From Bacteroidaceae bacterium (GTDB lineage Bacteria; Bacteroidota; Bacteroidia; Bacteroidales; Bacteroidaceae), in NCBI GenBank assembly GCA_017647975.1, contig JAGCJL010000084.1:1-62404 (forward strand): a stretch of 62,404 bases of DNA. The letters are read 5' to 3'. The position numbers and the translations under genes are program-made. The notes under the pieces are model-generated. The model saw only the letters and a list, made by a program, of their open reading frames with translations. It was not told where the DNA came from and did no database searches. Position 1 is the stretch's first letter, and each line of letters opens with the position of its first letter. Positions 4,664-43,155 of this stretch are shown here, piece by piece.

Positions 4664-6052
4664 ATGAATAAACAGAAAACACTAAACGGAAGTTTTTCAC
4701 TTTATGGCAAGGGCCTTCACACAGGTTTGATCCTGACTGTGACATTTAATCCTGCACCGGAGAACTACGGATATAAAATACAAAGAATAGACCTTCCTGG
4801 AGAGCCTATCATTGATGCTGTTGCCGAAAATGTAACAGAGACAACAAGAGGCACTGTGCTTACAAAGGGTGAGGCACGTGTCAGCACCGTTGAACATGCA
4901 TTGGCTGCACTGTTTGCATCAGGTATTGACAACTGTCTCATTCAGGTCAACGGTCCGGAATTCCCTATTCTTGACGGTAGTGCAATACACTATATTGAGA
5001 ACATTGAACGTATAGGCATCAAAGAACAGACTGCCGAAAAAGATGTATTTGTAATAAAATCAAAGATTGAGATAAAGGACGGAAACTCAGGACACTCTAT
5101 AATAATACTTCCTGACGAAAAGTTCAGCCTTAATGTTCTTGTACATTACGATAGCGATTTGCTATACAACCAATATGCTACACTTGAGGACATGGCCGAT
5201 TTCAAGACAGAGATTGCTTCAAGCCGTACATTTGTCTTTGTACGCGAACTTGAGCCCCTACTCAATCTTGGATTGATTAAAGGCGGTGACCTTGACAATG
5301 CCATTGTAATATATGAGCGTGAAATGCCTCAGGAGCAATATAATCGTATTGCAGACGTACTTGGAGTACCTCACATGGATGCCAAGAAACTCGGATACTT
5401 AAATCACAAGCCTCTTGTATGGAACAACGAGCCGGCACGTCACAAACTGCTTGATATCATAGGCGACCTTGCACTTATTGGCAAGCCCCTACAAGGACGC
5501 ATCATTGCTACTTGTCCGGGACACACCATAAACAACAAGTTTGCCCGTGCCATGCGTAAGGTTATACGTGAACATCAGATACAGGCACCTATATACGACC
5601 CAAACCGTACTCCGGTAATGGACATTATACGTATTAAGGAACTTTTGCCGCATCGTAGTCCGATGCTTATGGTTGACAAGGTAATTGAGTTAGGTTCAAA
5701 CTACATTGTGGGTACAAAGAACATCACAATGAATGAGCCATATTTCGTTGGACATTTCCCCGAAGAACCGGTAATGCCGGGAGTGCTGTTGGTAGAGGCT
5801 ATGTCGCAATGTGGAGCGTTGCTTGTAATGAACATGCTTGATGAACCACAAAAATATTCAACATATTTCCTAAAAATAGACAAGATTGTATTCCACAAAA
5901 AAGTAGTTCCTGGCGATACACTTGTATTCAAAGTTGAACAACCCGGTGCCCTACGTCATGGAATAACAATGATGAAGGGATATGCCTTTGTTGGTGAAAA
6001 ACTTGTTGCTGAAGCACAATTTACAGGTCAAATAATAAAGAACAAAGAATAA
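4664..6052 (+). CDS. lpxC/fabZ: Bifunctional UDP-3-O-acyl-GlcNAc deacetylase / 3-hydroxyacyl-ACP dehydratase
   Basis: A fusion known in Bacteroidetes that joins the committed lipid A step (LpxC, zinc deacetylase, residues about 1-305) to the fatty-acid elongation dehydratase FabZ (about 318-462), two enzymes that compete for 3-hydroxyacyl-ACP. LpxC zinc ligands are visible as H78 (STVEHAL), H260 and D264 (RHKLLD), with H287 as the probable catalytic His. FabZ shows LPHRSPML and the active-site pair H364 and E378 in GHFPEEPVMPG...EAMSQ. It lies between lpxD and lpxA, so three lipid A steps are expressed together. Confidence 0.95.
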   Translation: MNKQKTLNGSFSLYGKGLHTGLILTVTFNPAPENYGYKIQRIDLPGEPIIDAVAENVTETTRGTVLTKGEARVSTVEHALAALFASGIDNCLIQVNGPEFPILDGSAIHYIENIERIGIKEQTAEKDVFVIKSKIEIKDGNSGHSIIILPDEKFSLNVLVHYDSDLLYNQYATLEDMADFKTEIASSRTFVFVRELEPLLNLGLIKGGDLDNAIVIYEREMPQEQYNRIADVLGVPHMDAKKLGYLNHKPLVWNNEPARHKLLDIIGDLALIGKPLQGRIIATCPGHTINNKFARAMRKVIREHQIQAPIYDPNRTPVMDIIRIKELLPHRSPMLMVDKVIELGSNYIVGTKNITMNEPYFVGHFPEEPVMPGVLLVEAMSQCGALLVMNMLDEPQKYSTYFLKIDKIVFHKKVVPGDTLVFKVEQPGALRHGITMMKGYAFVGEKLVAEAQFTGQIIKNKE

Positions 6053-25003: not shown

Positions 25004-27799
25004 TCACTTGATAACCTTCTTGCCACCTACAATGTAAATTCCAGAAGCAGTAATCTCGCTTACCTTACGACCAGCAAGGTCAAAGATATGCTCTTCTGAA
25101 TCTTCTACTTCAAAATTCTCTACTGCAGTGGTATTGTCATCCTCCTTCTTGTGTGTTGAAAAATAATTTTCATTGGTTATATCCTCTATTGTCAAAGGTA
25201 CATAAACCATAGAATAACCTTTTGTGTAATCACCAGCATAACATGGTTCCTCTTCAAAGAAGAAAGCAATATCACCGTTTTGTTGCAGGCTCATTGTGCT
25301 GTAAGAACTCAAAACAGAACTTACCTGCTTACCCTCGATCCAATTTCCTGCCATATCATTTGAAGTATATGTAGCATTGGCCGAAACCTCTTTGTACCAG
25401 ATAGTAACATTTTTGCGGTCATACTGTCCGGAACCGCCCTTAGGCTGTGATTGCAGCAAAAGTTTCACGGCATCACCGTTAGAGTTCTTTGCATCAACAC
25501 ACATAATTTCACCATTGGTACCGTTATTGCCACCATTATTACAACCGTTCACAGCACTATTCCAAGTTCCGGCAGAAGTCTCCTTATTGGTATATGTAAA
25601 TATATTGAATACACGTCCACCGACACGGCGTGCACTAAGCAGAATCTGTCCGTTAGGCAAAATTTCAACTTTTGGCTCGTCACCGGCAGCAACAGGAGTC
25701 TGGCTACCACCGAGGATATTCCAATTCTTACCCAAATCGTCGCTATAGATTGCAAAGTTATTATAATTGTTTGTGCCTATTCTAACAAGAAGAGCACCAT
25801 ATATACGGGCATTTCCCGTACCGTTATAATCATGGTCAACAGCAAGTTTACCACTACCAAAGAAAGCAGAGCCACCGCTTGGGATAAGACTTGTCGCTGT
25901 TGAATACATCTTTGTTGTCATCTCCTCAATCGTCCAAGTAACACCGTTGTCACTACTGAAGACACGAGCCATTCTGTTAGGATTGCTGGTTGAACCATTA
26001 GGGAAAAGCACGTCACCGGCAGCAGCCATAACAACGACATTTTCTCCCACTGCAGCAACAGCAGCATCACCAAAAGCACGCTCATAGCTTCCTTCCTTGC
26101 TGTTATCACCGGCTGCGATAGTCTTAATTTCACTCCATGTAGCACCATTGTCATCACTTGTGCGGATAACAAGGTCTATTCTCTTTGTACCTGTACCATG
26201 ATTATCACGACCAATATCGTCCAAATTATGACGATAGTCGCTTATAGCAACGATTCTGCCTGTACTGGTTGTTGCAATGGCCGGGATACGATATGATTTG
26301 GGATCATCATTATAGAAAAGAGTAACATCACCTGTTCCGTCGGTCTTGAACTTAGCCACAACAGGAGTTCCGGCAACCAGTTTCTCTTTTTGTTCTGCTG
26401 TCAATGTTGGATTTTTTCCTAAAGCAACACCATCAAGATAGAAACCGACAAAATCAAAGCCACGATATTCGTAAGAAGATGAAAGCGTAATATTTCCCGA
26501 TAAATCGGCCAAGACATAAGCTGTCTTGTTTACATCATCAGTTGTTGCAACAACATTATTAGAAGCCAATGTTATACCGCCAAAGTGTGTATTAGGATTT
26601 TTGTTTGTCAATCCTTCAACCTCTATTTTATAATATAATTTGGTCTCAAAACCGGCAACCAAATTCTTGATATCTGCAAGGACATCAGCAGCGGCATCAC
26701 CTACTTCAAAAACGAGGTTTGAAGAACCCATATCGCCAGCTTGAGAATCCTGTGTCCAGCCGGTATCCCAAAGAAGAACACCATAGGTGTATTGAGAAGC
26801 ACTTGTATTATGATTTACAGCATGTTTCTCTATACCTATTATAATTGGATGAGTTGCCAATGTAGAAGACTTGAATTCAAGAGCCGATGTTGTGGGTTTG
26901 GTTGAAAGCGGTACAGTATTCTTGTCAGCAGAATTATATGACATAAATTTACCCACACCTACATTATACAAGTAGTTACCATCCTCTGTTGAGTAGTAAA
27001 TCCATTGACAATTCTTATTATCTTTACTTGGATTAGAATTCGTAAGCTTATTTGAATTATATACATAATCCACTCCTGCAGTTGCCATTAACCAGCCACG
27101 CTGTGTCTCAAAAGTATAGACCTTTCCGCTAACCAAATCAGCTGGTGTCTTTACAGCATTGGCAGGAAGGGTAACAGGAAAAATTTCTGCAATCTGCTCA
27201 CTTGTCAGTACCGCGTTATAAACCTTTACCATATTTATAGTTGCGTCACACAATTCATGAGCAGCACTGCTTGCCATACCACCACCAATATAGATTTTGG
27301 CATTGGGATAATCCTCTTTCACCATTTTAGGAGTAGCAATTTCATAATTATTGAAATTGCGGTTCATAACCTCAGAACCATTGACATAAATTTTGAATTT
27401 ATTGTTTGTTTTATCAAAAACATAAACAAGTTTCACACTCTCTGTGTTGTTTGGGATAGAACTTGTTGAAAAATGTTGACCATCTTTCGCTGCAGCGATA
27501 TATGCAGGAGCTTGTCCTACATGTCCACAAGCCATAAAAGAGGTGTTTGTTCCGGAAAAGTTTTCAGGAACTGGCTGATCAGGGTCGGCAACACAGAAGA
27601 AGGCACCACGACCCGACATTGTTCCTGTTGTCACCTCCATTGCAACTGTAAGATTCTGCATATCAAAAATCTTTGTAGCATCGGCATCGCTCAACAGATA
27701 AGGAGCAGTACCTATCTGGGACAACTCAACCACCGGAGTCTGTGCCATTGCAGCTATTGTCATAAACAATGATGCAATAAATAAAGTAATTTTTCTCAT
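25004..27799 (-). CDS. Multidomain secreted sialidase (GH33) with T9SS-type tail
   Basis: Exo-alpha-sialidase releasing terminal sialic acids from glycans outside the cell. The 931 residues comprise a signal peptide (1-19, ending AMA), a LamG/concanavalin-like domain (about 20-205), a ricin-like beta-trefoil (about 215-390), a beta-sandwich (about 395-490), and the sialidase propeller (about 498-880). The catalytic domain has YRIP (R504), SDYR, Asp-boxes (SDDNGATW, SSDNGVTW, SDDLGKNW) and the late YSTMSLQQNG / FFEEEP segment with the nucleophile Tyr. The last about 28 residues (IFDLAGRKV...GIYIVGGKKV) look like a type IX secretion sorting domain. It lies 77 nt after hydF on the same strand but is functionally unrelated. 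Confidence 0.88.
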   Translation of the reverse strand: MRKITLFIASLFMTIAAMAQTPVVELSQIGTAPYLLSDADATKIFDMQNLTVAMEVTTGTMSGRGAFFCVADPDQPVPENFSGTNTSFMACGHVGQAPAYIAAAKDGQHFSTSSIPNNTESVKLVYVFDKTNNKFKIYVNGSEVMNRNFNNYEIATPKMVKEDYPNAKIYIGGGMASSAAHELCDATINMVKVYNAVLTSEQIAEIFPVTLPANAVKTPADLVSGKVYTFETQRGWLMATAGVDYVYNSNKLTNSNPSKDNKNCQWIYYSTEDGNYLYNVGVGKFMSYNSADKNTVPLSTKPTTSALEFKSSTLATHPIIIGIEKHAVNHNTSASQYTYGVLLWDTGWTQDSQAGDMGSSNLVFEVGDAAADVLADIKNLVAGFETKLYYKIEVEGLTNKNPNTHFGGITLASNNVVATTDDVNKTAYVLADLSGNITLSSSYEYRGFDFVGFYLDGVALGKNPTLTAEQKEKLVAGTPVVAKFKTDGTGDVTLFYNDDPKSYRIPAIATTSTGRIVAISDYRHNLDDIGRDNHGTGTKRIDLVIRTSDDNGATWSEIKTIAAGDNSKEGSYERAFGDAAVAAVGENVVVMAAAGDVLFPNGSTSNPNRMARVFSSDNGVTWTIEEMTTKMYSTATSLIPSGGSAFFGSGKLAVDHDYNGTGNARIYGALLVRIGTNNYNNFAIYSDDLGKNWNILGGSQTPVAAGDEPKVEILPNGQILLSARRVGGRVFNIFTYTNKETSAGTWNSAVNGCNNGGNNGTNGEIMCVDAKNSNGDAVKLLLQSQPKGGSGQYDRKNVTIWYKEVSANATYTSNDMAGNWIEGKQVSSVLSSYSTMSLQQNGDIAFFFEEEPCYAGDYTKGYSMVYVPLTIEDITNENYFSTHKKEDDNTTAVENFEVEDSEEHIFDLAGRKVSEITASGIYIVGGKKVIK

Positions 27800-27876: not shown

Positions 27877-29064
27877 TTACATCACAACCCTATTCAAAAT
27901 ACCTGTCAATGCAGCTATGGCAACTCCATAGTTTGTTATGGGAACACCTTGCAAAGAGGCCTGACGCAGACGATACATCACATGACGACGGGTAAACATG
28001 CACGCACCACAATGTATGACAAGATCATATCCACTAAGGTCTTCGGGAAAATCATTGCCTGAGACAACATCAATCGTCAAGCCATCGCCAAAGCGGTTAC
28101 GCAACATACACGGCAGTTTTACTCTGCCTATGTCCTCGTTCTGCGGAATATGAGAACAGGCCTCAGCTATCAAAATTTTACTGTCGCCATTTAACGAGAG
28201 TAATTTTTCAGCCCCCTGACAAAAAACAGATATATCACCTTTGTGACGTGCCATAAGAAGAGAGAACGATGTAAGTTTCGTCTGCGGCGGAATAAGTTTT
28301 TCCACAGCTACAAAAACCTGAGAATCTGTTATCACAAGCGATGGCGGATTCACAAGCGAAGAGAGCAGCTGCGGCAACTCCTCAGAAGCACAACACAACG
28401 GAATACAATGTTTGTCAAGAAGATTACGAAGCGTCTGCACCTGCGGCTGAATCAAACGTCCTTTAGGAGCCTGAGAATCCTGTGGCATAACAAGCACCAC
28501 CACATCACCGGCTTTGGCAAGCGAGTATGTCAAATCATCAGCATCATCAATACAACAGACACTCTCTGAAATCTTTTCAAGAAGTTCAGAGCATCCTTTC
28601 TTTGTTAACGAATGGACGCAAGTTACTTTTTCGCCTAAAACATTCGCCCACACGAAAGAAACAGAGGTATCTTGTTTATTATCATCGCTTAACACAACAA
28701 AAACCGTTGGTATTTCATATTTTTTAAAGAGTGCCTGCCATTCCTTTTCCAATGCGTTCTCTTTGGGATTGTCATGAAGCACAATTACGGCCACATCGGT
28801 ACGTGCAATACTCTTTCGGGTTACATCGACACGCATTACACCAAGCTCACCCGTATCATCATATCCAGCGGTATCACCTATCACAGAAGCACCAATACCT
28901 GGAAGCTCAATATTCTTCCACACCACATCGGTTGTTGTCCCTGCAACAGGGGAAACAATTGAAACCTCCTGCCCGCAAAGAGCATTGACAAGCGATGATT
29001 TGCCGACATTACGACGGCCATAAAATGTTATATGTACGCGATTGGAACGTGCTGTTTCTGCCAT
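27877..29064 (-). CDS. hydF: [FeFe]-hydrogenase H-cluster maturation GTPase HydF
   Basis: Scaffold and GTPase that assembles the diiron subcluster from HydE and HydG products and passes it to apo-hydrogenase. The 395-aa protein has the P-loop GRRNVGKS (16-23), GTTTDVVWK switch region and the C-terminal Fe-S site CSH...HCGAC, which fits the CxH-x(46-53)-HCxxC pattern of HydF. It follows the HydE-HydG fusion by 14 nt, so all three maturase activities are made from one transcript. Confidence 0.95.
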   Translation of the reverse strand: MAETARSNRVHITFYGRRNVGKSSLVNALCGQEVSIVSPVAGTTTDVVWKNIELPGIGASVIGDTAGYDDTGELGVMRVDVTRKSIARTDVAVIVLHDNPKENALEKEWQALFKKYEIPTVFVVLSDDNKQDTSVSFVWANVLGEKVTCVHSLTKKGCSELLEKISESVCCIDDADDLTYSLAKAGDVVVLVMPQDSQAPKGRLIQPQVQTLRNLLDKHCIPLCCASEELPQLLSSLVNPPSLVITDSQVFVAVEKLIPPQTKLTSFSLLMARHKGDISVFCQGAEKLLSLNGDSKILIAEACSHIPQNEDIGRVKLPCMLRNRFGDGLTIDVVSGNDFPEDLSGYDLVIHCGACMFTRRHVMYRLRQASLQGVPITNYGVAIAALTGILNRVVM

Positions 29065-29078
29065 ACTCTTTTCAATAT

Positions 29079-31544
29079 TTAAAAACGAAAATCACCTCTA
29101 CCCTTATCTATCTCATCAAGATACTCTTCTGTCTTTTGACGCACTCTTTCATTAGGTATGCTTCCGAGCAAACGACGTATCATATTCTTGCCCTTCTCAG
29201 CTGTTTCGGGCGAAGCATAATCCCTTATATACTCCTTTAAAGTAAGCAAGGCATTGGGAAGGCAGCAGTTTGATATCTGACCATTCTTAAGAAGTGTCAT
29301 GAAACGATCACCGGTACGTCCTTCGCGATAACATGCCGTACAGAAACTTGGTATGTGGTCAAGGTCAAGCAACCACCCAACAACTTCATCAAGCGAGCGG
29401 TGGTCGGCAATATCGAATTGCGAAGAGTTCTCTTCCTTACTCTCAGGAGTTACATAACCTCCAACGCTGGTACGCGAGCCGCCGCTTATCTGCGAAATAC
29501 CTAATTCAAGTAACCTCTCACGACTCTTCTCACTCTCACGCGTGGATATAATCATGCCTGTATAAGGTACTGCAATTCTTATTATTGCCACAATCCTGTA
29601 AAAGATTTCATCGGGAACAGCATTTTCAAAATCATCGGTATCCACATCGTCAGCCTTACAAAGACGTGGCACACTTATGGTATGAGGACCTACACCGTAT
29701 GTCGCCTCAAGATGTTCGGCATGCATAAGAAGAGCTACAAAATCATAGCGATAAGTCTCAAGACCGAAAAGCACTCCTATGCCCACATCGTCTATGCCAC
29801 CCTGCATTGCACGGTCCATAGCTTCGGTGTGATAGGCATAATCGCTCTTTGGGCCTGTGGGATGCAGAGCCTCATACTGCTTTTTGTTATAGGTCTCCTG
29901 AAAAAGAATATACGTACCAATACCGGCATCACGCAGACGGCGATAGTTCTCAACAGTGGTTGCAGCGATATTCACATTGACACGACGTATAGCACCGTTC
30001 TTATGCTTTATACTATAAATAGTCTTTATACTCTCAAGAATATACTCTATAGGATTCTTAAGCGGGTGTTCGCCGGCCTCGAGAGCAAGACGCTTATGTC
30101 CCATATCCTGCAACGCCATCACCTCCGCTTTAATCTCCTCCTGTGTAAGTTTTTTACGTCGTATCTGTTTATTCTTTGCATGATAAGGACAATACACACA
30201 GCCATTCACACAATAGTTCGAGAGATAAAGCGGTGCGAACATAACAATGCGATTACCATAGAAACGGTGTTTAATCTCATTGGCAAGAGCGTATATCTCA
30301 TTCACAGTCTCAGGATCATCACACTCTAGCAGAAGAGCAGCCTCACGATGAGTTAGTCCTTTGAAAGAGCGTGCCTTTTCCAAGATTTTTCCTATAAGTT
30401 CCTTATCCTTACAGTTATCACGTGCATAGTCCAGCGTCTCACATATCTCGGCATCACAGATAAATTCTGTAGCTTTGTCCGATTTTGGATTGTACATATT
30501 ATAGTCTCCTCGGGAGTAGTCTATGGCATATCCCATTCCGTTCAACAGTTCGTTGAGTGCCGAAACCTGTTCGCCCGACTCACTACCCCATCCTTTTTTA
30601 TTATTATAAATAGAATATTTATCTCTCACCGCAAGTGGTGTAAAATTAGGCATCACAACATTTGCTCCGGCAAGTATCCCCCTTTGAGTACCTTCACTAC
30701 AAAGCGTTGCAAGAGCTGTAGTTGCCGGTATCAAGGCCTTTGGGAAACGCAAGCGTAAAAGCGATATAAGCAACAGCGTATCATTGACGCTCCCCGCCTC
30801 ACATTCTGCAAACGGCGTACCTGCAGCCGGAACAAAAGGCCCTATACCTATCATTTGAGGTTTAAGTCTATCAAGAAAACAAAGGTCTGCGACAAGTTCT
30901 TCCACTCCCTGCCCCGGAGAACCAATCATCATACCACTGCCCACCTGAAAACCCAACTCCTTAAGTTTCCAAAGACAATTCTTACGATTGTCAAGACTCA
31001 TGGAAGAGGGATGAAGATGACGGTAATGCTCCTCGCTTGCCGTTTCATGACGCAGAAGATAGCGGTCGGCTCCGGCACGACGCAACATCTCATATCCGGC
31101 ATGCGAGCGTTCGCCAAGCGAGAGAGTGACAGCTTTTCCCGGAAACATTTCCTTTATTGACGAGACAACATCGGCAAGCCATTCATCGTTCATCAGCGGA
31201 TCTTCACCACCCTGCAGAACAAAAGTACTGAAGCCTAACGAAGCCGCATGAGAACAAGCATCAAGTATTTCCTCTTTTGTAAGCCTGTAACGAGAGGCAT
31301 CACGATTACCGCAACGCAAACCACAATAATAACAATTATTACAGCAATAAGAGGTTATCTCAATCAATGCACGAACATAAATCCTGTTGCCAAAATTATC
31401 AACAGCAACCTCATGAGCCCGGGAGATGATACACTCACGCTCCTCAACCGAAAGTTCGGTAAGCAAAGCCCGCCACACTTCATTAGGCACAGTCTCGGCA
31501 GCACCCAAGAGATTTATATATTCGTGTACTCTCTTTTTCTCCAT
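29079..31544 (-). CDS. hydE-hydG: HydE-HydG fusion, radical SAM maturases of [FeFe] hydrogenase
   Basis: One 821-aa reading frame joins two radical SAM enzymes normally encoded apart. Residues 1-349 are HydE (Fe-S site C67-x3-C71-x2-C74 in SYCCNNCYYCG; LQGGEDP; GSGMMIGSPGQ). Residues 350-821 are HydG, starting at MYNPKSDKATEF, with C445-x3-C449-x2-C452 and the C-terminal auxiliary-cluster cysteines in CTACYREG...SNCC. HydG makes the Fe(CO)2CN synthon from tyrosine and HydE processes it further. At the junction (ATG at 30497-30495) a GAGGAG lies 8 nt upstream, so HydG may also start internally. The start at 31544 is favoured over 31574. A one-base error hiding a stop cannot be ruled out. Confidence 0.88.
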   Translation of the reverse strand: MEKKRVHEYINLLGAAETVPNEVWRALLTELSVEERECIISRAHEVAVDNFGNRIYVRALIEITSYCCNNCYYCGLRCGNRDASRYRLTKEEILDACSHAASLGFSTFVLQGGEDPLMNDEWLADVVSSIKEMFPGKAVTLSLGERSHAGYEMLRRAGADRYLLRHETASEEHYRHLHPSSMSLDNRKNCLWKLKELGFQVGSGMMIGSPGQGVEELVADLCFLDRLKPQMIGIGPFVPAAGTPFAECEAGSVNDTLLLISLLRLRFPKALIPATTALATLCSEGTQRGILAGANVVMPNFTPLAVRDKYSIYNNKKGWGSESGEQVSALNELLNGMGYAIDYSRGDYNMYNPKSDKATEFICDAEICETLDYARDNCKDKELIGKILEKARSFKGLTHREAALLLECDDPETVNEIYALANEIKHRFYGNRIVMFAPLYLSNYCVNGCVYCPYHAKNKQIRRKKLTQEEIKAEVMALQDMGHKRLALEAGEHPLKNPIEYILESIKTIYSIKHKNGAIRRVNVNIAATTVENYRRLRDAGIGTYILFQETYNKKQYEALHPTGPKSDYAYHTEAMDRAMQGGIDDVGIGVLFGLETYRYDFVALLMHAEHLEATYGVGPHTISVPRLCKADDVDTDDFENAVPDEIFYRIVAIIRIAVPYTGMIISTRESEKSRERLLELGISQISGGSRTSVGGYVTPESKEENSSQFDIADHRSLDEVVGWLLDLDHIPSFCTACYREGRTGDRFMTLLKNGQISNCCLPNALLTLKEYIRDYASPETAEKGKNMIRRLLGSIPNERVRQKTEEYLDEIDKGRGDFRF

Positions 31545-31561: not shown

Positions 31562-31738
31562 CAAAAATAGACACAAACGAGCGAGAAATACGAAACTTGT
31601 TTCAGTATTTTTCACAGCGAGTGTAGAAAATTTTAGAGATTTCTCAAAAATAGACACAAACGAGCGAGAAATACGAAACTTGTTTCAGTATTTTTCACAG
31701 CGAGTGCAGAAAATTTTAGAGATTTATCTCAAAAATAG
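31562..31738. repeat. Two tandem direct repeats (83 and 85 bp) plus a partial third
   Basis: Units start at 31562 and 31645 and differ by one T/C change and a 2-bp insertion; the first 9 bp recur at 31730. Each unit holds CAAAAATA, which on the minus strand is TATTTTTG, an exact -7 box; the inverted repeat GAAAC-TT-GTTTC; and flanking arms GAGAAATAC / GTATTTTTC. The repeat fills the hydEG-hydrogenase divergent region. Confidence 0.9.
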
Positions 31739-31796: not shown

Positions 31797-33218
31797 ATGA
31801 TTGTACGATACAAACTGCTGTCTCGACTTGTGTCGATGTGGAAGAGAGATGAGCTTCTTGATAAAATCGACAGTATGCCAATAGAGATGTACCCGCGTAA
31901 CCAAAAGCCTAAGGGACGTTGTTGCATACACAAAGAACGTGCCGTAGTTAAATACAAAACAATGGCGATGCTTGGTTTTACCATGAACGATGAAAAAAGC
32001 GAGATGGACAACCTGAGCTATTACGCAAAGAAGATGCTTGAACGTAAAAATGTTGACCGAACTGACGGTGCCATACTGCACGTGATGGATGAAGCTTGTT
32101 CTTCATGCGTAAAAATCAACTATGAGGTTTCAAATCTTTGTCGTGGTTGCGTAGCACGTCCGTGCTACACGAACTGTCCTAAAGATGCTATATTCTATGA
32201 CAAAGAAGGCAAAGCACACATTGACCACGACAAATGTATCAGTTGCGGAAAATGTCATCAAGTATGTCCATATCATGCTATCATCTACATGCCTGTTCCA
32301 TGCGAAGAAGCATGTCCCGTAAAAGCCATATCAAAAGACGAATTCGGCATTGAGCATATCGATCCTGAAAAATGTATCTACTGTGGCAAGTGTTTGAATG
32401 CATGTCCTTTCGGTGCTATTTTTGACAAATGTGAAGTATTCGATGTACTGAACAGAATACGTGACAACAAAAAGGTTATAGCAATGGTAGCTCCATCAGT
32501 ACTTGCACAATTCGGCAAACCTATAGCACAAGTGTATGGTGCATTGAAAGCCATTGGTTTCAGCGATATTGTAGAGGTAGCCTATGGTGCCGAGGAGACA
32601 ATCCGTCGCGAAGCCGAAGAGTTGCTTGAAAAGATTGAAGAAGGACAGCCGTTCATGACAACAAGTTGCTGCCCAGCATATGTTAATCTGGCAAAGAAAC
32701 ATATTCCCGAAATCGTCAAATATGTTTCATCAACAGGTTCTCCTATGCATTACACTGCAAAATATGTAAAAGAGAACTACGAAGAGTGTGTAACCGTATT
32801 CATTTCACCATGTGCATCAAAGAAAGCCGAAGGAACAAATGACGAGAACGTAGATTTTGTACTAACATTCCGTGAACTTGATGCTGTTATACAAGGCATG
32901 AGAATTGACATAGAGAGTTGCATACCATACACTCCCGAAAAACATGCCTCACACGACGCACACAACTTTGCCAAGACAACAGGTGTATTTACAGCCGTAA
33001 AGAACCATATAGGCAAAGAAGAACTTGAAGGTGTTGTTATTGCCGACCTTAACAAAAAGAACATAGCCCTACTTAAAGCATACGCAAAAACAGCAAAATG
33101 TCCCGGCAAATTGGTAGAGGTCATGTCATGTCCCGGAGGTTGCATAACCGGTCCATGTTCATGCAGTAATGCCGGCGAGGCAACACGCCGCTTTGAAGCA
33201 GAAATCAAGAAGATATAA
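31797..33218 (+). CDS. Monomeric group B-type [FeFe] hydrogenase
   Basis: Cytosolic enzyme that probably reduces protons with electrons from ferredoxin. The 473-aa protein has an N-terminal region of about 85 residues, a cysteine-rich ferredoxin section (about 93-220: CRGCVARPCYTNCP, CISCGKCHQVCP, CIYCGKCLNACP), and the H-cluster domain. H-cluster motifs are TSCCP (289-293), SPCASKKAE (337-345, C339) and MSCPGGC (443-449). The P2 and P3 forms are those of group B rather than the TSCCPxW/MPCxxK group A enzymes. It is divergent from hydEG-hydF. Confidence 0.9.
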   Translation: MIVRYKLLSRLVSMWKRDELLDKIDSMPIEMYPRNQKPKGRCCIHKERAVVKYKTMAMLGFTMNDEKSEMDNLSYYAKKMLERKNVDRTDGAILHVMDEACSSCVKINYEVSNLCRGCVARPCYTNCPKDAIFYDKEGKAHIDHDKCISCGKCHQVCPYHAIIYMPVPCEEACPVKAISKDEFGIEHIDPEKCIYCGKCLNACPFGAIFDKCEVFDVLNRIRDNKKVIAMVAPSVLAQFGKPIAQVYGALKAIGFSDIVEVAYGAEETIRREAEELLEKIEEGQPFMTTSCCPAYVNLAKKHIPEIVKYVSSTGSPMHYTAKYVKENYEECVTVFISPCASKKAEGTNDENVDFVLTFRELDAVIQGMRIDIESCIPYTPEKHASHDAHNFAKTTGVFTAVKNHIGKEELEGVVIADLNKKNIALLKAYAKTAKCPGKLVEVMSCPGGCITGPCSCSNAGEATRRFEAEIKKI

Positions 33219-39585: not shown

Positions 39586-42500
39586 ATGAAAAACTTTAAA
39601 TTAACCATTTGCATGTTCTTGCTTTCAATGGTAAGCACAAGCATTTTTGCCTTAGGCAATGCATTACCCAAAGGTACTTTGCCCGAATCTGGCAAGATGT
39701 ATTACATCTACGCCGACACCTATTCAGGCGGACAGTATGTTAATCGTTATTTGTACAACAACAATGGTACATTAGCACTTAACACAACTGTAAACGAAGA
39801 GAGCGACCACTACATTTGGATTTGTTCCGAAGCCAATGGTAAATACACATTCCAAAATGCCGGTGACAACACAAAATATCTGGCACACAAAACACTTGAC
39901 ACATCACCATACAACTTCACACTTGGCAAAGCCGAAGCAACTCACGCAGGTATAACTATCTGGTCCGATAAAGCAGACCGTTACTTTGTAACAAAGAACG
40001 ACGGTACAGCATTTGACCAAGCTAATAAAACATATAATCAAGCAAATGAAGATTGGTGTACCGACTATGTATTCATTCCATATTCTGCACCAACCGGCAA
40101 TAGCATGAGAATCAACACTAACATTTCAGATGCCGGCCGCATCATTGTAAATGGAATAAAAAAACCACTCCCCTACACTATTTGGGAAAGCAATTTTGAA
40201 GCACCATACACAATTACCGCCGAAGCGAACGGTTCTTACACATTCTTGGGTTTCTATGATGGCGAAACACTTGTTGGCGAAACGCTTGAACTAACAGCTA
40301 TTGAAGACCAGAAATTATATGAGGCACGCTTCGAGGCTAAAAATATTTTCTCTACAACAGAAAATCTTATTCCCGTACACATTGACAGCAACCGTCGTAA
40401 CGGTTATTGCATCCGCATGAACAGCAAGGAGAACTATAGCACTGTAAACAGCGGTTCTGCCACATATGAAGAGAATGAGATATGGTATCTTGTAGGTGAG
40501 GAATCTTCATTCAAGTTATACAACAAACTCACCGGCATGAACCTTGCATTGACATTGGCCGGAAACGGACGAGATTCAGCAGCATCTTTAACAGAAGAAG
40601 GTACAGAGCTCTGCCTGGTTGCACAAGAGGACGGCAGCTATGGTATCTGCCCTGTAGGTGCTACAGGACAGAGTCTTAACATGCATGGAGGCAATGGCAA
40701 GGACATCAAGCTCTATGGCATAACCGACGATGCTTCTAAATGGTTGTTCAGCATTGTTTCAAGCAACCCGCTAACAATCAACTACAACACAAACACCGAA
40801 GGTGCTTATGAGACAAATTACAAGATTGGAGAGCTTACAATAAGCCTTAATGGTACAACAAGCACATCAATGCTTGAAATGAACAACCTCCCAACATCAA
40901 GCAAACTTTACTTTCCCGAAGGTTCAGCAACATTCGGTATGTCAGTAGGAAACATTCTCCGTGGTTGGAAAATGGACATTAACGGTGGTACAAGCATCGA
41001 AAACCAGGAAATCACAGAATCGGGCCTTGAAGTGAATGTAAACATCGCTGTTGACAAGGAGAACAAATACCAGTACCTCTATTACTCACCAGGACCAAAC
41101 GGCAAGCCTTACCGTATCCCCGCTATTGCCACAACAGCAAACGGCTATGTGTTCGCAATCAACGACTACCGTCCTTGCGGAAATGACATCGGCTATGGAG
41201 AAGTTGACCTTGTGATGCGTCACAGCACTGCTGCCGGTGACGAATGGGACGGTCATTCATGGACCGACGAAATAAAGATTGCCGACGGTTTGGGAAATAC
41301 TTCAGAAGGAATTTGGAAAGTTGGTTTCGGTGACCCCGCTATTGTCGCCGACCGCGAGAACAACGAAATCCTCGTCATGAGCGTATGCGGTAACCGTACA
41401 TGTTGGGACGGCAATTATGGCGAAGGCGGCGAAAACGAAAACCCAAACCGTATGGCACGCATACGTATCAAGTTCAACGAAACAGAAAAAAAGTGGGAAG
41501 TAGGCCAGCCCGAAGAGGTTACTTACGATATTTACCCATTGTTCAAAGATGAGAACGGTAATGTACATGCAGCATCAATGTTCATTGGTGCAGGACGTAT
41601 TGCACAGAGTTCTAAGATCAAGGTTGGTACACACTACCGTATCTATTGTTCAGTATGGACAGTAACCAAGGATATACGCCAACACCACAACTATGCATTA
41701 TATTCTGATGACTTCGGTGAAACATGGCATCTGCTTGGTGAACTTGGTTACGAGAATAGCCCCGCAAAATACGGTAATGAGCCTAAGTGCGAGGAACTCC
41801 CTGACGGAAGTGTACTTTTGAGCAGTCGCAAGGGCTACGGACGTTACTTCAACGTATTCCGCTATACCGACTTTGAAAAAGGCGAAGGTGCATGGATGGG
41901 CGAAGTTTCAACAGATGTGGCAGGTAACCTCAAATGGGGCGGAAACTCCACCAACGGTGAGCCATTGCTTGTAGGCAACGTATTGTTCCAGTCGGCACCA
42001 ACAGGTAACAACCGTAGCGACGTTGCTGTATTCTACAAGATACTAAGCAACAACTCTTCCGACTATACACCAGAAAAACTTTCTAACGGTTGGACAAAAA
42101 TTGCCATAACCGACAAAGAATCAGCATATTCTTCTATGTGTATTCTTCCCGGTAGAGAAGAAATTGGTTTCTTCTACGAAGAAGTTCCCGGCGGTTACTC
42201 AATGGTTTATTTGCCTTTGACACTCAAGGATATCTTGTCCGAAGAGGCTTACAACGCTACAAAACTGCAACCAGAACCATTCGCACATGACAAAGGCCTT
42301 CTATACACTTACACTAATTTATTAGAAGAAGCTGTAAAAAACTCAAAGAAAGAAAATTTCAATGCTCTGCAGTTGCAAACAAGCAATACCAATGAAGCGT
42401 ATTATCTTTCAACCAACGCACAGGAAGATTCAGAAGGACCTATTGCAAACCTAATTGACGGTAATTACGATACACACTTCCACTCTGAATACAAGACAAA

Positions 42501-43155
42501 CGTAGGAGAGAACCACTATATACAGGTAAATTTGGGCAATGGCAACGAATTGTCTAAATTTGGTTTCAGATATGCTACACGTAAGGCCGAGACCGATTTC
42601 CCAGCTGTTATTGATGTTTATGGCAGCACAGACGGAAATAATTTCACAAAAATAACTACAATAAAAAACCTTCCTGGTGGAAATAGCAGTACAACAGTAA
42701 TATATACTTCGGAAGAAATTGTTTGCGACGAGGCATACTCTTATCTGCGTTTCACTGTTACAGCAAACAATTCAAACAAGGTAGAGGATGGAAACCACCC
42801 ATTTTTCCACATGGCAGAATTCTATCTATTGACAGCAACAGAACTTTCCGAAGAGCTTTTAGCAGCAATAGAAGCAGCGAACAACGCTATATCAGCTGCA
42901 AAAAACACATACGAAACAGCCCAAACTACCGATGAGTTCAAAACAGCTGTTGATGAAATAAAGTATGCATATAAGGCTTTCCTCGCAGCAACAGGCAACG
43001 ACAAAGAGGAGGAAGATAACGAGAACACTACTATTGAAACTCCAGAAATAACCAATGACAAAGTTATTATCTTTGACCTTGCAGGCCGTAAAGTCAAGAA
43101 CATTACAGCAGCCGGTATTTATATTATAAACGGTAACAAAGTTTTGGTCAAGTAA
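39586..43155 (+). CDS. Large secreted sialidase (GH33) with discoidin domain and T9SS-type tail
   Basis: The 1189-aa product has a signal peptide (about 1-22), an N-terminal beta-rich region (about 25-255), a domain shared with the downstream paralogue (about 260-500), and a GH33 catalytic domain (about 505-890). Catalytic signs are YRIP (R510), NDYRPCG, one clear Asp-box (SDDFGETWH), LPDGSVLLSSRKGYGR and AYSSMCILPGRE / FYEE. A discoidin/F5-8C-like carbohydrate-binding domain (about 925-1065, LIDGNYDTHFHSEY), a helical FIVAR-like segment (about 1080-1130) and a T9SS-like tail (IFDLAGRKVKNI...GIYIINGNKV) follow. It is likely surface-exposed, removing sialic acid from host glycans. Confidence 0.88.
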   Translation: MKNFKLTICMFLLSMVSTSIFALGNALPKGTLPESGKMYYIYADTYSGGQYVNRYLYNNNGTLALNTTVNEESDHYIWICSEANGKYTFQNAGDNTKYLAHKTLDTSPYNFTLGKAEATHAGITIWSDKADRYFVTKNDGTAFDQANKTYNQANEDWCTDYVFIPYSAPTGNSMRINTNISDAGRIIVNGIKKPLPYTIWESNFEAPYTITAEANGSYTFLGFYDGETLVGETLELTAIEDQKLYEARFEAKNIFSTTENLIPVHIDSNRRNGYCIRMNSKENYSTVNSGSATYEENEIWYLVGEESSFKLYNKLTGMNLALTLAGNGRDSAASLTEEGTELCLVAQEDGSYGICPVGATGQSLNMHGGNGKDIKLYGITDDASKWLFSIVSSNPLTINYNTNTEGAYETNYKIGELTISLNGTTSTSMLEMNNLPTSSKLYFPEGSATFGMSVGNILRGWKMDINGGTSIENQEITESGLEVNVNIAVDKENKYQYLYYSPGPNGKPYRIPAIATTANGYVFAINDYRPCGNDIGYGEVDLVMRHSTAAGDEWDGHSWTDEIKIADGLGNTSEGIWKVGFGDPAIVADRENNEILVMSVCGNRTCWDGNYGEGGENENPNRMARIRIKFNETEKKWEVGQPEEVTYDIYPLFKDENGNVHAASMFIGAGRIAQSSKIKVGTHYRIYCSVWTVTKDIRQHHNYALYSDDFGETWHLLGELGYENSPAKYGNEPKCEELPDGSVLLSSRKGYGRYFNVFRYTDFEKGEGAWMGEVSTDVAGNLKWGGNSTNGEPLLVGNVLFQSAPTGNNRSDVAVFYKILSNNSSDYTPEKLSNGWTKIAITDKESAYSSMCILPGREEIGFFYEEVPGGYSMVYLPLTLKDILSEEAYNATKLQPEPFAHDKGLLYTYTNLLEEAVKNSKKENFNALQLQTSNTNEAYYLSTNAQEDSEGPIANLIDGNYDTHFHSEYKTNVGENHYIQVNLGNGNELSKFGFRYATRKAETDFPAVIDVYGSTDGNNFTKITTIKNLPGGNSSTTVIYTSEEIVCDEAYSYLRFTVTANNSNKVEDGNHPFFHMAEFYLLTATELSEELLAAIEAANNAISAAKNTYETAQTTDEFKTAVDEIKYAYKAFLAATGNDKEEEDNENTTIETPEITNDKVIIFDLAGRKVKNITAAGIYIINGNKVLVK

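Follow-up and report, generated by a model that had tools for sequence, protein, structure and literature searches.

Natural in-frame fusions between maturases of the [FeFe] hydrogenase are known as HydEF proteins from green algae, in many of which they are reported in the excerpted parts of three papers (PMC3897525, PMC8003979, PMC12924338). The HydEF of Tetraselmis contains a fused HydE part without the stop codon and the six C-terminal residues found in the separate HydE (PMC3897525, in excerpt). In the genus studied here and in the Clostridia, the HydE and HydG maturases are separate proteins whose genes follow one another in the order hydE-hydG, with a HydE stop codon wherever the junction is readable and usually an intergenic stretch before HydG. 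How the product of HydG reaches HydE is a recent question. Direct delivery to HydE of the Fe(CO)2(CN)(Cys) unit made by HydG is described in one excerpted paper, which cites earlier work (PMC11736057), and docking gave no preferred HydG-HydE interface in another (PMC6212873). No HydE-HydG fusion was reported among the matches listed in a full-text search of the open-licence literature, nor is one mentioned in the excerpted parts of PMC6212873, PMC9431212, PMC7450098, PMC4967309 and PMC8887013.

The window analysed here is the whole stretch of 62,404 nucleotides of contig JAGCJL010000084.1, which belongs to a Bacteroidaceae MAG of 1.79 Mb in 95 contigs (79.7% complete). On the minus strand of the window, positions 31544-29079 (29079..31544) form one open frame of 821 codons plus the stop (822 codons) with zero internal stops. 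The first-pass annotation, in which the strand was left unstated, had described this frame as a joined HydE (residues 1-349) and HydG (residues 350-821), and the reading of the frame and the NCBIfam matches bear this out. The HydE half (30498..31544, minus strand) is recognized by model TIGR03956 over residues 11-348 with 558 bits, above the cut-off of 254.6 (profile positions 3-340 of 340), and the HydG half, which includes the stop codon (29079..30497, minus strand), by TIGR03955 over residues 351-821 with 963 bits, above the cut-off of 312.15 (positions 1-470 of 470). Both radical SAM CX3CX2C sites and the C-terminal cluster cysteines of HydG had also been pointed out, and all of these are invariant across an alignment of 23 rows: C67/C71/C74 in the HydE half, and C445/C449/C452 along with the CX2CX22C residues C735/C738/C761 in the HydG half, where the expected spacing was taken from PMC9431212 (in excerpt). 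Four Pfam families were identified in the joined protein, among them the Radical_SAM and BATS domains, and among solved structures the best matches are HydG 4wcx (residues 351-821) and, for residues 31-318, HydE structures including 5fep. An alternative GTG start at position 31574 would add 10 residues to the HydE end. Proteins of the HydE family adenosylate the iron complex made by HydG, and those of the HydG family are tyrosine lyases that generate CO and cyanide on the dangler iron; the two halves of the window protein are predicted from their sequences to have these same activities. The mean identity to 35 relatives from the genus is 0.624 for HydE and 0.838 for HydG, within the ranges of 0.604-0.649 and 0.822-0.867 obtained when these relatives are compared with one another and with the window, and thus neither half looks decayed.

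If taken as it stands, the window gene resembles the algal HydEF in that two of the three maturases of the [FeFe] hydrogenase are naturally joined in one frame. However, the algal fusions, as far as the excerpts describe them, are eukaryotic, with HydF as the partner and, in the case of Tetraselmis, an intron where the two parts meet, whereas the partner in the window is HydG and the join is seen in a single genome. The window protein is not of the HydEF type, as HydF is encoded by a separate gene (27877-29064). Another gene for two enzymes placed end to end in one frame is found in the same window: a bifunctional LpxC-FabZ gene at positions 4664-6052, matched by NF009667 over 2-464 of 464 positions. 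This fusion has a curated model of its own, whereas no HydE-HydG model is present among the 25 NCBIfam models listed for the window fusion.

The search of the genus covered 44 genomes, including that of the window, 42 of which gave a match. The junction was readable in 36 of the 43 other genomes; the genes were apart, partial or single in five (G158, G252, G706, G707 and G711) and gave no match in two (G692 and G703). A HydE stop codon is present in every one of the 36, none of which is fused. The first-pass annotation had taken an intact stop at this site in close relatives as a sign against the fusion, and this holds only in part: the stop is indeed there in every readable relative, but the window sequence is not thereby wrong. 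The HydE tail in the relatives consists of RGD[YFC] followed by 0-12 further residues, a variation in length which suggests that this end of the protein tolerates change, and HydG starts with ATG-TAY in each of the 36. The distance from the HydE stop to the HydG ATG is from -8 to 1535 bases; gaps of more than 1.2 kb are seen in G698 (locus L170) and in G240 (locus L173), the latter with several repeated stretches rich in C+G, as judged by eye. The closest of these relatives, G701, is 68% identical in HydE and 88% in HydG, and the fusion event is therefore not dated by any near neighbour.

The residues at the window junction are Ser-Arg-Gly-Asp-Tyr-Asn followed by Met-Tyr-Asn-Pro (SRGDYN, then MYNPKS), that is, the conserved HydE tail, one extra residue and the first methionine of HydG itself. 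On the minus strand, the ATG of HydG is located at 30497-30495 and is preceded, with one base between them, by a TAA triplet (30501-30499) which is not in the frame of HydE (junction 30495..30501). In relative G694, a TAA with identical spacing is in frame and serves as the stop codon, and in relative G046, HydE terminates exactly at RGDY. Homopolymer runs at the site are at most two bases long. A single base change between the genes would be sufficient to fuse them in at least 21 of the 36 relatives, while 13 need more and two fall outside the test, so that one mutation or one assembly error could explain the join.

The first-pass annotation had also noted a GAGGAG motif 8 nt before the HydG ATG and suspected that it was a chance product of Arg-Gly-Asp codons. 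The motif is there, on the minus strand at 30506..30511, and the suspicion appears to be justified: the Arg-Gly-Asp codons of the HydE tail that spell it are kept in 36 of 36 relatives, and neither GGAG, GAGG nor AGGA is found in the 18 bases upstream of HydG in any of 37 relatives, the leaders of which are mostly rich in A. We have therefore rejected a Shine-Dalgarno role for this motif, the resemblance being probably coincidental. Apart from this, the window has retained the ATG of HydG and the six bases ahead of it, which are A or T only. In a start-context matrix built from the HydG starts of the 37 relatives, this ATG scores higher than 17 of the 18 other in-frame ATGs and 56 of the 63 other ATGs in any frame inside the gene. 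The context is nevertheless weak, as only three of the 37 HydG starts in the relatives score below it. The median score of the relatives is 2.8 for gaps of at most 6 bases (n = 12) versus 6.15 for the others (n = 24), with a Mann-Whitney p of 0.04 for a cut at 6 that was set after the gaps had been seen. Short-gap relatives thus also have weaker start contexts, and the window in this respect resembles a tight, coupled junction after the loss of the stop.

A search of broader genome samples for the architecture, as the first-pass annotation had proposed, identified the fusion in the genome of the window alone. HydG matches above the cut-off were obtained from 72 of 301 genomes of the family and 32 of 395 genomes of the phylum, with some genomes in both samples, and from 212 of 398 genomes of the phylum to which Ruminococcus bromii belongs, where the strongest 150 of the 212 were inspected. 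No second HydE-HydG fusion was found among the matches listed from these three samples, in which the longest HydG frames besides that of the window were 536 (family), 596 (phylum) and 677 amino acids (Ruminococcus phylum). Five long HydG frames were fetched and none proved to be fused to HydE. In three of these, G994 (677 amino acids), G1096 (593) and G1051 (565), HydE is located just upstream of HydG in a different frame, which means that the long HydG frame is merely its shadow. In the other two, G990 (611) and G460 (596), the sole HydE-like match overlaps HydG, as expected for two related families. The HydG-like protein of G460 (locus L177, 177-1919, minus strand) carries a C-terminal tail of eleven near-identical units of seven residues of the type EEKCHLT. 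Open frames that span both genes in G101 and G691 (855 and 898 amino acids) were likewise rejected, as TGA stops are present between the genes in the DNA of both, and a listed frame length is thus unreliable when taken by itself. Altogether 131 loci were examined, one set of relatives being 80 of 408, and 103 of these contained both genes. Two of the 103 come from the window, and the remaining 101, among which some genomes are represented more than once, are all unfused. The separate stops in the 36 relatives and the 101 unfused loci show that the fusion is not a conserved architecture, and we have rejected an established HydE-HydG family shared by more than one genome in the samples searched, but these comparisons do not show the window sequence to be wrong. 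A search of viral contigs with the junction DNA gave no match.

We consider it rather probable, taking together all readings that accept it, that the join is real in the DNA. The explanation opposed to these is that the window contains ordinary, separate hydE and hydG genes with a tight junction, and that the draft lacks one base at the stop of hydE. We assign an appreciable chance, though clearly below even, to such a sequencing or assembly artefact, as the junction is one base from the ordinary arrangement, as shown by the spacing in G694 and the HydE end in G046, and as the join is confined to one incomplete draft while the genes are unfused in every readable relative. Broken frames do occur in drafts: among 260 hydE and hydG genes, a set which includes duplicates of the same genome, two HydG frames are clearly cut early (L070 and L089) and one HydE match that starts late (L092, at residue 130) is a possible third case, whereas eight further flagged rows merely start 41-55 residues in. 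In the two HydG frames, a stop or frameshift follows 101 and 37 codons after the start of the match, and these genes may be pseudogenes or draft errors. A literature search on fusion artefacts in MAGs gave no match. Against an artefact speak the short homopolymers at the site, the ordinary divergence of both halves from the genus relatives and the state of the contig, on which 12 of 20 other proteins could be judged by family models and all have intact frames (HydF, HydA, GlmM, Rpe, a DASS transporter, a LysR regulator, LpxC-FabZ, RF1, AspT, RelA/SpoT, FabD and NrnA). The matches cover most or all of the model, although those of RelA/SpoT, LysR and NrnA do not reach the curated cut-off. The contig is thus without sign of frequent indel errors; the other eight of the 20 scanned proteins have no, partial or distant matches and are uninformative on frames. 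Furthermore, two or three breaks in 260 genes imply that a break should rarely hit the handful of bases at the junction of any particular locus, but since the finding was picked for being unusual, this low likelihood leaves room for an error.

The hypothesis that we favor, at about an even chance, is that the sequence is as read, that this one lineage has lost the stop that separated hydE from hydG, and that the maturases are made mainly as one HydE-HydG polypeptide in which both halves work. Of these points, the correctness of the base sequence, the synthesis of the long polypeptide and the activity of its two halves are inferred. A minimal change would have removed the stop: in the simplest history a single base dropped out where the stop and start codons lay close together, and in an alternative one a more extensive deletion occurred in an ancestor whose genes were further apart. 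It is also conceivable that the DNA is real but that ribosomes start at the retained HydG ATG, such that separate HydG is still made beside some of the fusion. The preservation of this ATG with its AT-only surroundings, and a context score above those of most ATGs inside the gene, would fit such internal initiation, but the context is weak among HydG starts, the Shine-Dalgarno look-alike is without counterpart in the relatives and, with the stop gone, there is no terminating ribosome to re-initiate; we therefore regard it as improbable. Finally, the fusion could have been selected as a channel for the organometallic product of HydG to HydE and have become established across a wider clade, given that the HydE step directly follows that of HydG (PMC11736057, in excerpt). 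We find this very improbable, as such a fusion is absent from all 36 readable relatives and from the matches listed for the family, the phylum and the Ruminococcus phylum. The many relatives that are one base away and still unfused argue against a strong benefit and suggest that fusion is at best neutral. We thus prefer a recent, near-neutral fusion over a selected channel.

According to our favored hypothesis of a recent fusion, the HydG half would make the Fe(CO)2(CN)(Cys) product, and the HydE half, attached through a loop of some 15 residues, would process this product further in the direction of the diiron unit destined for HydF. Each half may thereby be at a higher local concentration for its partner, though no benefit has to follow from this. 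An AlphaFold2 model computed from the 23-row alignment (mean pLDDT 85.2, pTM 0.62) consists of two folded halves, where HydE ends in a strand at residues 340-342 and the first helix of HydG begins at residue 358. The loop at 343-357 between them suggests that the join is sterically tolerable, whereas the pTM of only 0.62 leaves the position of one half relative to the other undefined, and there is no defined contact between them in the model. The reported delivery from HydG to HydE makes channelling chemically sensible, and channelling within the fused chain is possible, although the sequence itself gives no indication of it. That the window encodes a naturally occurring and functional radical SAM maturase with both HydE and HydG activity, in which Fe(CO)2(CN)(Cys) is passed between active sites in one chain to serve the group B1 hydrogenase, strikes us as unlikely. 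If it were true, this natural 1:1 tethered pair would represent a ready reagent with which to test the effect of proximity on maturation and single-chain function. If the join is an error, tight stop-start junctions of the kind seen in at least 21 of the 36 relatives can yield false fusion proteins in drafts.

The gene for the HydF maturation GTPase (27877..29064, minus strand; TIGR03918 with 490 bits, profile 2-392 of 392) is located next downstream, 14 bases from the HydG end, and the gene for a monomeric [FeFe] hydrogenase of group B1 (31797..33218, plus strand; TIGR04105 with 506 bits, PF02906) is located upstream and divergent from the maturase genes. In its own assembly, which is incomplete, the window gene is the sole HydG-family match above the cut-off and likewise the sole HydE-HydG match, and the group B1 hydrogenase is the single Fe_hyd_lg_C match in a search with PF02906. 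A divergent hydA gene is placed just upstream of hydE in 31 of the 36 genus relatives, the other five being readable over at most 0.63 kb of upstream DNA, and hydF is found 8 to 1054 bases downstream of hydG in 28 of the 36, the other eight being readable over at most 1.5 kb. The hydA neighbour is not universal, since three 10-kb loci from near relatives that are not among the 36 (L052, L090 and L093) gave no match to it within 4 kb before hydE. Two large proteins that look secreted, with stretches that by eye we take to be sialidase-like, flank the hydrogenase region at 25004-27799 and 39586-43155. Between hydE and the divergent hydrogenase gene, positions 31562-31727 hold two tandem units of 83 nt that are 98% alike. 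A 28-nt core of this unit is also present on two more contigs of the same genome, once on C78 and twice, 83 nt apart, on C92, and the unit thus appears to be a dispersed repeat that sometimes occurs in tandem.
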